52,797 bases of DNA from Flavobacteriales bacterium (GTDB lineage: Bacteria; Bacteroidota; Bacteroidia; Flavobacteriales_F; PHOS-HE28), in the NCBI GenBank assembly GCA_019912395.1, contig JAIOIH010000061.1:1-52797 (forward strand). Reading direction: 5' to 3'. The position numbers and the translations under genes were made by a program. Positions 5,765-52,797 of the stretch are shown here, piece by piece. Under the pieces are notes generated by a model. That model saw only the letters and a list, made by a program, of their open reading frames with translations. It had not been told where the DNA came from and ran no database searches. Within the stretch, counting starts at the first letter, position 1, and each line of letters begins with the position of its first letter.

Positions 5765-6328
5765 ATGCGTTCACGTTTGACGGCCATCATGGCTTTGGCC
5801 CTCTCGTTCGTCCTGGTCCTCACCTCCGCAGTGAGCGCGCAACGCTTTCAGGTGAAACTTTCGGGGCAGGTCACGGAACTCTATTCCGGCGATCCCGTGC
5901 GAAGTGCCTTGGTGCGGGTGCTGAAGGCTGGCCAGGATGATCAGCAACAGATCACTCGCGGGGATGGCCGGTACGAGTTCGAATTGGAACGGGGCTGGAA
6001 ATACGAGGTCTGGTTCAGCAAGAAGAACATGGTGACCAAGCACGTGATCATTGATACGCGAGAGATCCCGCCCTATCCAGATGTTCCCTTCTATGAGATG
6101 GATCTCCAAATGACCTTGTTCCCGTGGATTGCGGATGTGGACCTTGGCGCGTTCCAGGAGGCCCTGGGCGTGGCCGCCTTCAAGGCCAGTGTGAGGAACA
6201 TGAGCTGGGACATGCCCTACACCGAAGAGATGCGCCCCGTCTTCTCCAAAGTGATGGACGAGTACGAGAAGACCTTCCGGGGCTACTACAAACGCCGTGA
6301 TCGCCGGGAGCGGGATGTCCTTCCCTGA
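5765..6328 (+). CDS. Secreted carboxypeptidase-regulatory-like domain protein
   Basis: A 187-residue exported protein with a signal peptide cleaved near residue 25 (SAVSAQ). The N-terminal half reads VKLSGQVTE, then a variable loop, then a GDGRYEFEL turn, the pattern of a small carboxypeptidase-regulatory-like beta sandwich. The C-terminal half is alpha-rich and Arg/Lys-rich at the end. It resembles the products of 8479-9045 and 26826-27923, so the three form a paralogous set. No function is known for this group. The start sits 4 bases behind a strong -7 element, so the message is probably leaderless. It is followed after 12 bases by the convergent end of folP. Confidence 0.75.
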   Translation: MRSRLTAIMALALSFVLVLTSAVSAQRFQVKLSGQVTELYSGDPVRSALVRVLKAGQDDQQQITRGDGRYEFELERGWKYEVWFSKKNMVTKHVIIDTREIPPYPDVPFYEMDLQMTLFPWIADVDLGAFQEALGVAAFKASVRNMSWDMPYTEEMRPVFSKVMDEYEKTFRGYYKRRDRRERDVLP

Positions 6329-6340
6329 TCGGGCGTGCCG

Positions 6341-7189
6341 TTATCCACGATCGTAGGCGGCCAGCAGCTTCACCGCTTCCACGGCCTCCCGCACGTCATG
6401 CACGCGCAGGATGGCCGCTCCGTTCAACAGGGCCAGCGTGTTCAGCACGGTTGTTCCGTTCAGGGCGCTTTCCGGGTCGGTTCCCAGCACTTCGTTGATC
6501 ATGCGCTTTCGTGAGAGGCCTGCCACGATGGGCGCACCGAGCTGTCGTATCGCGCCCGATCCCCTTAAGAGGGCAAAGTTGTGGGCGCTGTCCTTTCCAA
6601 AGCCGAAGCCCGGATCCACGAGCACGTCCGCGATGCCCGCTCTTCGGGCCGCAAGTACCCGTTCACTGAGGAACTTGACCACCTCCGCCACCACGTCCCG
6701 ATAAGTGGGGGCACGCTGCATCGTGCGCGGCGTTCCTTGCATGTGCATCACGATGTAGGGCACGCGCAGGCGGGCCACGGTGGGCAGCATGGCACTGTCC
6801 ATAAGCCCCGCGCCAATATCGTTCACCAGTGAGGCACCGGCTTCCACGGCTTCCGCTGCCAGGGCGGCACGCCACGTATCAATGCTGATCAGGGCCCCGG
6901 GGAACCGTTCGCGCAAGCCGGTGATCACAGGGATCACACGCTTGCGTTCCTCCTCCAGCGGAAGCTCCGAGGATCCCGGCCTGCTGCTGGCCCCGCCCAC
7001 ATCAAGCATGCCGGCCCCTTCCGCCAACATCCGGTCGGCGGTCCACAGCGCTTGGTCCAGGGTTTCCAGCCTGCTGCTCCTGACGAATGAGTCGGGGGTG
7101 ATGTTGAGGATGCCCATCACCATCGGGGTGCGCGCACGTTCGAGCCGTCCGTGCATGCACCACACGATATCTTCGCCGCCGATCTTCAC
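6341..7189 (-). CDS. folP: Dihydropteroate synthase
   Basis: A 282-residue TIM-barrel enzyme joining 6-hydroxymethyl-7,8-dihydropterin pyrophosphate to p-aminobenzoate in folate synthesis. Family marks in order are MGILNITPDSF, GGASSRPGS, SIDTW, GASLVNDI, VMHMQGTP, VDPGFGFGKD, GLSRKRMI and RVHDV near the end. The first loop reads DSFVRSSR instead of the common DSFSDGG. The start is GTG at 7189, exactly 4 bases after a -7-like CAACTTTG (7194-7201). It is divergent from the DUF1599 gene with only 29 bases between the two start codons, an arrangement I recall from other Bacteroidota. Confidence 0.95.
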   Translation of the reverse strand: MKIGGEDIVWCMHGRLERARTPMVMGILNITPDSFVRSSRLETLDQALWTADRMLAEGAGMLDVGGASSRPGSSELPLEEERKRVIPVITGLRERFPGALISIDTWRAALAAEAVEAGASLVNDIGAGLMDSAMLPTVARLRVPYIVMHMQGTPRTMQRAPTYRDVVAEVVKFLSERVLAARRAGIADVLVDPGFGFGKDSAHNFALLRGSGAIRQLGAPIVAGLSRKRMINEVLGTDPESALNGTTVLNTLALLNGAAILRVHDVREAVEAVKLLAAYDRG

Positions 7190-50545: not shown

Positions 50546-51403
50546 ATGACCAAGCACGTACAAGTCGGCAACATCGATTGCGGCGGAGACCAGCTCTTCC
50601 TCATCTCCGGCCCTTGCGTGATCGAGGAGGAGAGCATCATGATGCGCACGGCGGAGAAGCTCCGCGAGGTTAGCGAGCGCACCAAGGTCCCTGTGATCTA
50701 CAAGAGCAGCTTCATGAAGGACAACCGCAGCAGTGTGGAGTTCTACATGGGCCCAGGACTCGATGCGGGGTTGAAGACACTGGAGAAGGTGAAGAAGGAA
50801 TTCGGATTCCCCATCCTCACGGACGTACACTATCCGAGCCAGGTGAAAGCCGCAGCCGAGGTGTGCGACGTGCTGCAGATCCCCGCCTACCTCTGCATGC
50901 AGACCACCTTGGTCACGGAGGCCGCCAGGACCGGTGCGGTGATCAACCTGAAGCATGGTCAATTCCTCGCTCCGGACAACATGGTAAAACCGGTGAAGAA
51001 GATCGAGAGCGTGGGCAACGAGAAGATCATCCTTACCGAGCGTGGGTTCGTCCTTGGGTACAACGACCTGGTGGTGGACCCCCGAGCGTTCTATCACTTG
51101 CGCCAAGCGGGCTATCCCGTGGTGTTCGACATCACGCACAGCATCCGCAAGTACGGTATCCCCAGCGCCGACCCACGTGGTGGCAATCGTGAGTTCCTGC
51201 CCACCATCGCTCGTGCCGGGGTGGCAGCGGGCGTTGATGGTGTCTTCATCGAAACCCATCCTGACCCCAGCACTGCACTTTGCGATGCAGCCAGCCAACT
51301 TTGTGTTCATGATCTGGAGGAATTCCTGAAGCCGCTGCTGGACCTGCATGCGGTGGAGGTGAAGTACCGGGAACGAACGGACGCAGAGGCGCAGAGGCGC
51401 TGA
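50546..51403 (+). CDS. kdsA: 3-deoxy-D-manno-octulosonate 8-phosphate synthase
   Basis: Condenses phosphoenolpyruvate with D-arabinose 5-phosphate to make KDO 8-phosphate for LPS inner core. Blocks: LISGPCVIE, YKSSFMKDNRSS, PILTDVH, KHGQFLAP, ILTERG, VFDITHS, GGNREFLPTIARAG, FIETHPDP. Cys24 in GPCVIE is the metal ligand of the metal-dependent class (Asn in the E. coli-type enzyme). After the usual ending HAVEVKY the frame gains RERTDAEAQRR, encoded by a CTCTGCG-type repeat, so the tail appears to be captured non-coding sequence. The downstream aldolase-CBS gene lies 141 bases away. Confidence 0.95.
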   Translation: MTKHVQVGNIDCGGDQLFLISGPCVIEEESIMMRTAEKLREVSERTKVPVIYKSSFMKDNRSSVEFYMGPGLDAGLKTLEKVKKEFGFPILTDVHYPSQVKAAAEVCDVLQIPAYLCMQTTLVTEAARTGAVINLKHGQFLAPDNMVKPVKKIESVGNEKIILTERGFVLGYNDLVVDPRAFYHLRQAGYPVVFDITHSIRKYGIPSADPRGGNREFLPTIARAGVAAGVDGVFIETHPDPSTALCDAASQLCVHDLEEFLKPLLDLHAVEVKYRERTDAEAQRR

Positions 51404-51407
51404 GCGG
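51379..51407 (-). repeat. CTCTGCG-type repeat, inverted copy, encoding the KdsA tail
   Basis: ACGCAGAGGCGCAGAGGCGCTGA on the plus strand is the reverse complement of the repeat 100 bases downstream (shared GCGCCTCTGCG and CTCTGCGTC). It includes the kdsA stop codon. Confidence 0.7.
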
Positions 51408-51502
51408 AAAAGATGCACGTGAAATACACGGCCCGTACCTTCTAAACAAACGTAACCCAGGAATCACCCAAAGCCATCGATCGCGTGCCGCAGAGCATTT
51501 GA

Positions 51503-51529
51503 CCCTCTGCGTCTCCGCGCCTCTGCGGC
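51503..51529 (+). repeat. CTCTGCG-type repeat before the aldolase-CBS gene
   Basis: CCCTCTGCGTCTCCGCGCC followed by TCTGCGGC, 15 bases upstream of the ATG at 51545. With the inverted copy at 51379 it brackets about 95 bases that contain no gene. Confidence 0.7.
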
Positions 51530-51544
51530 AAATAACCTTTTCAC

Positions 51545-52567
51545 ATGGAACTCTACTTAGACAGTGCCGACATCAAGGAGATCGACGAAGCCTTCAAGCT
51601 AGGTTTTCTCACCGGTCTCACCACCACGCCCACCTTCATGCACCGGGGCGGGGTCACGAACATCGACAAGATGATCCTGGACCTGGCCAAGAAGGTGCCC
51701 ATCCTGCAGGTGGAGGCCCTCGGTGAGACGGCGGAGGAAGTGGTGAAGGAGGCCAAGCGCCAATTGAAGATGGGCCTGAAAAAGGAGACCACGGTCTTCA
51801 AGATCCCGGTGAGCCTCGAAGGTCTGCGCGCTTGCAAGATGCTACGGGACCAAGGCATCATGGTGAATGTTCACCTCGTGTACACCTTGCAACAAGCGTA
51901 CATGGCGATGCAGGCCGGCGCCAACTACGTGTGCCCGCTCGTGGGCCGCTTACAGGACCAAGGGCATGATGCGCTCAGTCTTGTACAGCAGTGCGTGGAG
52001 GCGGTGAACTACTACGGCTACGACAGCAAGATCATGTTCAGCAGCGTGCGCACCGTGGAGCATGTGCGCAACGCGGTGGAGATCGGGGTGCATACCATCA
52101 CCGTGCCTTGGAAGCTGATGAGGCAGCTCACCGACAACCACTTCACCACCATCGGCACGCAGCAGTTCTATGAGCACACGCGCCTGATCACCATGAAGGT
52201 GAAGGACGTACTATCGCGCAGTAATCCCGTGGTGAAGGAAAGTGCCACCGTGAGCGAGGCCTTGGTGGAAATGACCAAGCACGGCTTCGGTGCCGTGATG
52301 GTGGTGGACGCGAAGGGGAAGAACAAGGGCGTCTTCACCGATGGCGGCCTGCGCCGTGGCATCGAGAAGGACGGTAACAAATTCCTCGGAAGGAAGCTGA
52401 GCGCATTGAAGTTCAACGCACCGTACACGGTGTCGCCGGAAGCGTTGCTGGACGAAGCCCAGAAGCTTTTCAAAGAGCACAAGGTGGACACGCTCAGTGT
52501 GAGCGAGAACAGCAAGCAGCTTGGCATGCTGGACATCCAGGATATGATGAAGGCAATTGCCGGATAG
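51545..52567 (+). CDS. Transaldolase/fructose-6-phosphate aldolase-like domain fused to a CBS pair
   Basis: A 340-residue fusion. Residues 1-215 match the small transaldolase/FSA family: Asp6 (MELYLD), Gln55, Schiff-base Lys86 (FKIPVS), Arg135 (GRLQDQG) and Ser166 are kept. Asn28 of TTNP is Thr28 (TTTPTF), and the donor-pocket Thr109 and Ala129 of FSA align with His110 and Cys130. Residues about 217-340 form two CBS motifs (MKVKDVL ... GVFTDGGLRRGIE, then KVDTLSV ... MLDIQDMMKAI), whose GxFTDGxLRR and final LDIQDMM pattern resembles the CBS pair of KdsD. It follows kdsA. A role in sugar-phosphate supply for KDO is inference. Confidence 0.88.
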   Translation: MELYLDSADIKEIDEAFKLGFLTGLTTTPTFMHRGGVTNIDKMILDLAKKVPILQVEALGETAEEVVKEAKRQLKMGLKKETTVFKIPVSLEGLRACKMLRDQGIMVNVHLVYTLQQAYMAMQAGANYVCPLVGRLQDQGHDALSLVQQCVEAVNYYGYDSKIMFSSVRTVEHVRNAVEIGVHTITVPWKLMRQLTDNHFTTIGTQQFYEHTRLITMKVKDVLSRSNPVVKESATVSEALVEMTKHGFGAVMVVDAKGKNKGVFTDGGLRRGIEKDGNKFLGRKLSALKFNAPYTVSPEALLDEAQKLFKEHKVDTLSVSENSKQLGMLDIQDMMKAIAG

Positions 52568-52696
52568 TTGCCGGTTGTCGGTTTCCCGTTCGGCGCTTGA
52601 AACTTCGGTAGTTATCGGTTGTTCGGAGCGATCTGCATCACTGCAACGGTCGGCAGCCTGTGCTTGCCTGAATATATTGACCGCTCGGAGGTTACA
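52568..52696. other. Intergenic segment between aldolase-CBS gene and IS end
   Basis: About 130 bases without a gene. It contains repeated GGTTGTTCGG-like and GTTGCCGGTTGTCGGTT words and a weak TATATTGACC site. No terminator hairpin with a T run was seen. Confidence 0.4.
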
Positions 52697-52797
52697 TGTC
52701 AACTCCCCAAACCTAGATAAAAATGGCACGAAGAGACCAAGTGAAGGGGGAAGTTGCAGAACGTCAAATGCGCTACTTCAGCGAAGAATTCAAACGA
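52697..52797 (+). mobile_element. Probable left end of an insertion sequence (partial)
   Basis: TGTCAACTCCCCAAACC at 52697 looks like a terminal inverted repeat and stands 26 bases before the ATG of a transposase-like frame. The A-rich AGATAAAA before the ATG differs from neighbouring GC-rich gene starts. The right end lies outside the window. Confidence 0.45.
52723..52797 (+). CDS. Transposase-like protein, N-terminal fragment (cut by window edge)
   Basis: The 25 visible codons read MARRDQVKGEVAER and then RYFSEEFKR. RxFSEEFKR is the usual opening of the helix-turn-helix OrfA of IS3/IS911-type transposases in Bacteroidota. Too short for a firm family call. Confidence 0.55.
   Translation, partial: MARRDQVKGEVAERQMRYFSEEFKR

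Follow-up and report, generated by a model that had tools for sequence, protein, structure and literature searches.

The window, which is the whole analysed stretch of 52,797 nucleotides from a Flavobacteriales bacterium, carries near its end a gene for a protein, called TAL-CBS here, that joins a barrel of the transaldolase/fructose-6-phosphate aldolase (FSA) type to a CBS pair akin to that of KdsD. TAL-CBS very probably supplies D-arabinose 5-phosphate (A5P), from which the outer-membrane sugar Kdo is built, in a Kdo pathway without KdsD, and its best reading is that of a putative non-orthologous replacement of this isomerase. Such an alternative A5P supply had been proposed in an earlier note on this DNA, and it gains support from the absence of KdsD, the kinship of the CBS pair, the gene neighbourhood and the complementary distribution of the two proteins. 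The aldol reaction is held slightly better than even as the way in which A5P would be made, and the whole explanation, an A5P supplier working by the aldol route with the CBS pair as pathway sensor, is modestly favoured. In the portions of the literature available, Kdo pathways take A5P from KdsD-type isomerases, and the open-licence PMC literature, as searched, yielded no account of a transaldolase fused to a CBS pair, nor of any stand-in for KdsD. The features concerned are as follows.

50546..51403, + strand: kdsA2, gene for a KDO-8-phosphate synthase (TIGR01362) from the TAL-CBS-linked clade
51404..51544, + strand: gap of 141 bp between kdsA2 and TAL-CBS, which lie on the same strand
51545..52567, + strand: TAL-CBS gene, ATG start, 340 amino acids, transaldolase/FSA-type barrel and CBS pair
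51551..52204, + strand: TAL_FSA domain, residues 3-220 (Pfam and alignment)
51626-51628, + strand: Thr28 codon (alignment)
51713-51715, + strand: Glu57 codon (alignment)
51800-51802, + strand: Lys86 codon, Schiff-base lysine (alignment)
51872-51874, + strand: His110 codon (alignment)
51932-51934, + strand: Cys130 codon (alignment)
52199..52561, + strand: CBS pair, residues about 219-339, KdsD/KpsF-like (Pfam, NCBIfam and structure ranking)

The aldolase-CBS fusion following kdsA, as first described in the earlier note, is confirmed by the open reading frame, by Pfam matches to TAL_FSA and two CBS stretches, and by kdsA lying 141 bp upstream. The two genes presumably form one operon, short same-strand gaps being found in relatives too. 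The TAL_FSA match (PF00923) has an E-value of 1.1e-35 and 123.8 bits against a curated cut-off of 27, and the CBS stretches reach 9.2e-16; with Lys86, Asp6, Arg135 and Arg169 also present by alignment, the protein belongs to PF00923. It scores below the equivalog model of fructose-6-phosphate aldolase, TIGR00875 (162.7 bits, cut-off 245.95), and below the KdsD/KpsF model, TIGR00393 (62.7 bits, cut-off 203.7), which covers the CBS part alone (215-329), no SIS domain being present. An AlphaFold model (mean pLDDT 78, pTM 0.59) can be trusted in the barrel alone; the pLDDT falls below 50-60 at residues 198-225 and over much of the CBS half. In a fold search the barrel superimposes on transaldolase 3s0c with a Z-score of 29.4 (203 residues, rmsd 1.5), on 3r8r with about 29 and on FSA 1l6w with 27.2. 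To the right of the gene, in the last 230 bp (52568-52797), the kdsC-like gene of the near-identical relative L055 is not continued; a short open frame, MARRDQVKGEV..., may be the beginning of a transposase gene at which the contig was interrupted, and its 25 residues gave no Pfam match.

Residues were mapped by alignment to E. coli FsaA and to the TalC of the same genome. The predicted Schiff-base lysine, Lys86, aligns with FsaA Lys85; Asp6, Arg135 and Ser167 are likewise common to FsaA, while Arg169 replaces FsaA Lys168, as it does in the genome's TalC. The acid/base position is held by Glu57, where FsaA has Gln59 and the TalC a glutamate; Gln55, considered as an FSA-type acid/base residue, was dropped since the alignments set Glu57 at that position. 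Three donor-site changes had been noticed before (Asn28 to Thr28, Thr109 to His110, Ala129 to Cys130) and hold, to which a fourth, Tyr131 to Leu132, must be added. The FSA donor-site set Asn28/Thr109/Gln59/Tyr131 is thus represented by Thr28/His110/Glu57/Leu132, and Thr28, Glu57, His110, Cys130 and Leu132 are invariant in the 21 aligned TAL-CBS members. Because Asn28 and Thr109, conserved in both FsaA and the TalC, are replaced, one cannot take for granted that TAL-CBS works as an ordinary FSA does. From FSA and transaldolase work, the replacements fall on the donor and catalytic-water side of FsaA. The retained arginine pair suggests a phosphorylated acceptor, and from the replacements we infer an altered donor.

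The source genome (99.02% complete) was searched for KdsD, a check that had been advised at the outset. A whole-genome SIS search gave seven matches in five proteins, typed by NCBIfam as GlmS (contig C39), a GlmS cut by a contig end (C77), a phosphoglucose/phosphomannose isomerase, GmhA and MurQ; none lies on the window's contig, in line with the SIS-free window reported earlier. Neither the KdsD model nor this one-by-one typing revealed a KdsD in the genome, and a KdsD encoded elsewhere in it was dropped as a candidate, all five SIS proteins being other enzymes. The genome also encodes kdsA, kdsB and a WaaA-type transferase. An ordinary TalC is encoded separately, so that TAL-CBS is not the housekeeping copy, and the idea that it is the plain transaldolase of this genome was abandoned.

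Across the phylum, the two proteins are distributed in a complementary way. The survey covered 392 genomes, of which 389 reach a completeness of 90% or more with no more than 5% contamination, with thresholds of E <= 1e-70 for TAL-CBS, 1e-20 for KdsD and 1e-60 for KdsA. KdsA was found in 282 genomes, KdsD in 275 (270 above the curated cut-off) and TAL-CBS in seven (G000, the source genome, and G130, G185, G229, G331, G427, G405), all seven with KdsA and none with KdsD. TAL-CBS thus occurs in 7/11 genomes having KdsA without KdsD, against 0/271 having both. Fisher's test gives p = 1.3e-11 (3.2e-10 without the source genome), a guide only as the genomes are related and kinship is uncorrected. 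The seven genomes span five families (f1, f3, f9, f11, f18), four of which (f3, f9, f11, f18) also contain KdsD genomes. At the thresholds used, four genomes with KdsA have neither protein (G062, G239, G307, G323), which indicates that KdsD may be lacking for other reasons, such as gaps in the assembly or a further source of A5P. All four are at least 90% complete and possess kdsB and a WaaA-type gene. Conversely, KdsD is found without KdsA in G091, G153, G387 and G393; in this comparison, made by eye, both totals leave the same 271 genomes (282 - 11 and 275 - 4). Within the genus of the source organism, TAL-CBS is complete in 29 of 40 genomes and partial in seven; among the 28 of 39 relatives searched, KdsD was found in none and KdsA in 27. 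The remaining one, G007, carries kdsB and a WaaA-type gene with neither KdsA nor TAL-CBS, its match being a plain TalC only. That it had lost kdsA together with TAL-CBS was considered and dropped: with kdsB and the WaaA-type gene present, a single gap in the assembly that swallowed both neighbouring genes is equally probable.

A scan of named genomes, in which 80 of 167 TAL-CBS matches were kept, gave entries whose titles name Bacteroidota groups, apart from L114, which bears the title Saccharibacteria. KdsD and KdsA were then sought in the genomes of 50 of the 51 loci outside the genus (far loci), among the matches listed. There, a full KdsD accompanies TAL-CBS in seven (L102, L105 from Chryseolinea serpens, L107, L115, L118, L125 and L132), three show a KdsD-model match to the CBS part alone of a TAL-CBS-sized protein, and 40 show no match; KdsA is found in 49, with two copies in the genomes of L102 and L105. 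Both systems can coexist, and their mutual exclusion is a strong tendency and not a law.

The neighbourhood of the gene is conserved beyond the genus and into distant families, as the proposal of a functional link with kdsA had called for. Among the 29 genus loci, kdsA2 lies directly upstream at 25/25 with room and a kdsC-like gene downstream at 23/28 with room. Among the matches listed, the 51 far loci have kdsA2 directly upstream in 28/47 and the kdsC-like gene downstream in 36/49; at least one Kdo gene is found at 39/51, and none within the stretch examined at 12/51. The complete order kdnA-kdnB-kdsA2-TAL-CBS-kdsC-like-kdsB occurs at two of the 47 loci inspected (L103 and L128). The kdsB of L136 scores above the curated cut-off of TIGR00466, and the kdsC-like HAD protein falls far under the KdsC cut-offs: the cassette KdsC may be of a divergent type too. 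The phosphatase slot is occupied by a HAD protein of about 230-260 residues (L136:718-1413 (-); L055 about 6039-6815 (+)). A further gene of 218-236 residues stands between kdsA2 and TAL-CBS in L116 (4220-4927), L130 (4260-4922), L133 and L120; the L116 copy gave no NCBIfam match. The window and the genus loci inspected showed neither kdnA nor kdnB. Both kdnA- and kdnB-like genes occur at 13/51 far loci among the matches listed (e.g., L103, L128, L116, L130, L133), and also at L232 (genome G288); the two L116 proteins align in full length with 5k8b, an 8-amino-Kdo transaminase (E 3.9e-123), and with 5k8c, a Kdo 8-oxidase (4.7e-126). 8-amino-Kdo, known from Shewanella, may be common in distant Bacteroidota.

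The CBS pair points to the same pathway step. GVFTDGGLRRGIE, the KdsD-like pattern originally pointed out in this region, is present, and the best NCBIfam models are kpsF (62.7 bits), KdsD (57.0) and GutQ (48.0), followed by PrdR (37.2). In a ranking of 26 solved structures, the CBS pairs of A5P isomerases take the first (4o9k, 1.2e-14), third (3fna) and sixth (3k2v) places. When 27 KdsD loci were scanned along with the CBS loci of the genome, every one of the 27 KdsD proteins (4e-16 to 6e-8) ranked ahead of the highest-scoring other CBS protein that the genome encodes (8e-6). By these three comparisons the pair is of the KdsD type, nearer to KdsD than to the genome's own CBS proteins or to other solved CBS structures, as had been surmised, and the two probably share an ancestor. 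A CBS tree places TAL-CBS as one clade (support 94) beside KdsD and not inside it, the separating branch on the KdsD side being weak (72); its rows are long and poorly aligned, and it does not settle the origin of the pair. Of the former suggestion that the SIS half of KdsD was swapped for an aldolase, the replacement of KdsD gains support from the genomes, and a swap out of a Bacteroidota KdsD is conjectural. KdsD-type CBS pairs bind CMP-Kdo or nucleotides.

In the aldol route, Lys86 would form a Schiff base with glycolaldehyde, and the resulting enamine would add to glyceraldehyde 3-phosphate held by Arg135 and Arg169; A5P would then leave for KdsA2. With its changes at 28, 110, 130 and 132, the donor pocket would suit a two-carbon donor, and the KdsD-like CBS pair would set the rate by sensing a ligand of the pathway, which may be CMP-Kdo or a nucleotide. 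The aldolase reading is the simplest as the reaction is published: in the portions available of PMC9947464 and PMC6298115, FsaA serves, both in vitro and in vivo, to join glycolaldehyde and glyceraldehyde 3-phosphate to A5P, and FsaA and FsaB have glycolaldehyde as a preferred donor. Against it stand the co-occurrence with KdsD (7/50, among the matches listed), the replaced Asn28 and Thr109, the transaldolase-type Glu57 and the sub-threshold TIGR00875 score.

Its weak point is that no source of glycolaldehyde for TAL-CBS was identified, and for this reason a ribose-5-phosphate 2-epimerase remains the main and serious rival, though on balance an unlikely one. Here, Lys86 would bind ribose 5-phosphate through its aldehyde as a Schiff base and C2 would be inverted to give A5P, either by proton transfer with His110 as a new base, or by retro-aldol cleavage and re-addition of the bound glycolaldehyde enamine. 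Free glycolaldehyde would not be needed, the distribution and the cassette would be explained equally, and His110 and Leu132, invariant in 21 members, alter the place of FsaA Thr109 and Tyr131. PDB entry 3upb names, in its title, arabinose 5-phosphate as a covalent ligand of a transaldolase, which speaks for the aldolase reading as well. We know of no transaldolase-fold epimerase. A5P formation by an FSA-type aldol reaction is published and the epimerisation is not. The wider picture, a KdsD-free entry into Kdo in which a transaldolase fold epimerises C2 or breaks and remakes ribose 5-phosphate under KdsD-type CBS control, in a module with its own KdsA clade, is similarly doubtful.

This KdsA clade, KdsA2, is at the centre of another rival reading. 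The KdsA of the window exceeds the TIGR01362 (KDO8P_synth) cut-off (331 bits against 314). In families f3, f9 and f18, the KdsA of TAL-CBS genomes is 70-74% identical to it, and that of KdsD genomes 43-51%. In a tree of 52 rows hand-chosen from 134 candidates, 29 TAL-CBS-linked rows and 23 from KdsD genomes are parted by one branch with support 100; linked-type KdsAs from genomes with both systems are labelled as linked, and G288, found later, would be an exception. The KdsA2 type is found in eight of the 392 genomes, the seven TAL-CBS genomes and G288. KdsA2 keeps Lys53, Lys58, Asn60, Arg61, Asp93, His95, Lys136, Arg166, His198, Glu236 and Asp247, and has Asp59, Met118, Arg201 and Tyr203 in place of E. 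coli Ala61, Arg120, Gln205 and Arg207. These clade-specific residues are near the acceptor site of ordinary KdsA, Arg120 being, as we take it, a phosphate-binding residue for A5P; the acceptor site of KdsA2 may differ.

TAL-CBS and KdsA2 could accordingly be imagined to handle another aldose phosphate, leading to a variant octulosonic acid instead of Kdo, with no need of A5P and hence of KdsD. The separate clade and its own residues are the best argument for this improbable scheme, and the kdnA/kdnB-like genes of many cassettes point to a modified Kdo. However, KdnB matches a 3-deoxy-manno-octulosonate 8-oxidase, so that Kdo itself would be the precursor, and KdsA2 stands above the KDO8P synthase cut-off with the eleven listed residues retained. 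The scheme also fits poorly with G288 (family f11, assembled as one contig), where KdsD is present and TAL-CBS absent at E <= 1e-70, and where the only KdsA match is a KdsA2 71% identical to that of the window, paired with this KdsD. Its cassette reads kdnA-kdnB-kdsA2-kdsC-like-kdsB, without TAL-CBS between kdsA2 and the kdsC-like gene. Although a single genome, this is what interchangeability of TAL-CBS and KdsD predicts, and it suggests that KdsA2 accepts A5P.

Least probable is a regulated but ordinary transaldolase or fructose-6-phosphate aldolase of pentose metabolism, with A5P from an unrecognised isomerase and adjacency to kdsA by chance or for flux balance: its fold and Lys/Asp/Glu/Arg residues are those of transaldolases and KdsD co-occurs in 7/50 named genomes (among the matches listed), but the source genome has a separate ordinary TalC, Asn28, Thr109 and Ala/Ser129 are replaced in 21/21 aligned members, and chance adjacency leaves the KdsD complementarity and the G288 cassette lacking TAL-CBS unexplained.

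As an A5P supplier, TAL-CBS would provide a second route explaining the genomes that have kdsA, kdsB and a Kdo-transferase-type gene without KdsD, filling a gap in pathway models for many Bacteroidota. It resembles KdsD/KpsF/GutQ, the SIS-CBS A5P isomerases, in its proposed product, its place in the pathway and its C-terminal CBS pair, and differs in having a Schiff-base barrel instead of the SIS catalytic half; if confirmed, an allosteric CBS module would have been kept on two unrelated catalytic domains serving the same step. An E. coli K-12 kdsD gutQ double mutant is non-viable (PMC10448790) unless A5P function is provided. kdsD lies within 0.7-1.2 kb of kdsA in 4/4 f18 genomes examined with wide flanks, and beside it in 0/13 other KdsD genomes (1.5-kb flanks). 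With FsaA and TalC-type transaldolases (PF00923), TAL-CBS shares the fold, Lys86, Asp6, Arg135 and Ser167, and departs from them by Thr28/His110/Cys130/Leu132 (a two-residue-type change on the donor side), the CBS pair and its score below TIGR00875. KdnA and KdnB (5k8b, 5k8c) have similar genes adjoining kdsA2 in part of the cassettes. Finally, the reaction proposed for TAL-CBS is that of FsaA as an A5P aldolase in the synthetic A5P-dependent assimilation of glycolaldehyde. As far as the available portions of those reports go, the synthetic route is engineered and consumes A5P through KdsD, whereas TAL-CBS occurs naturally, in a Kdo cassette that has no KdsD, and would be the natural counterpart of this aldol reaction.
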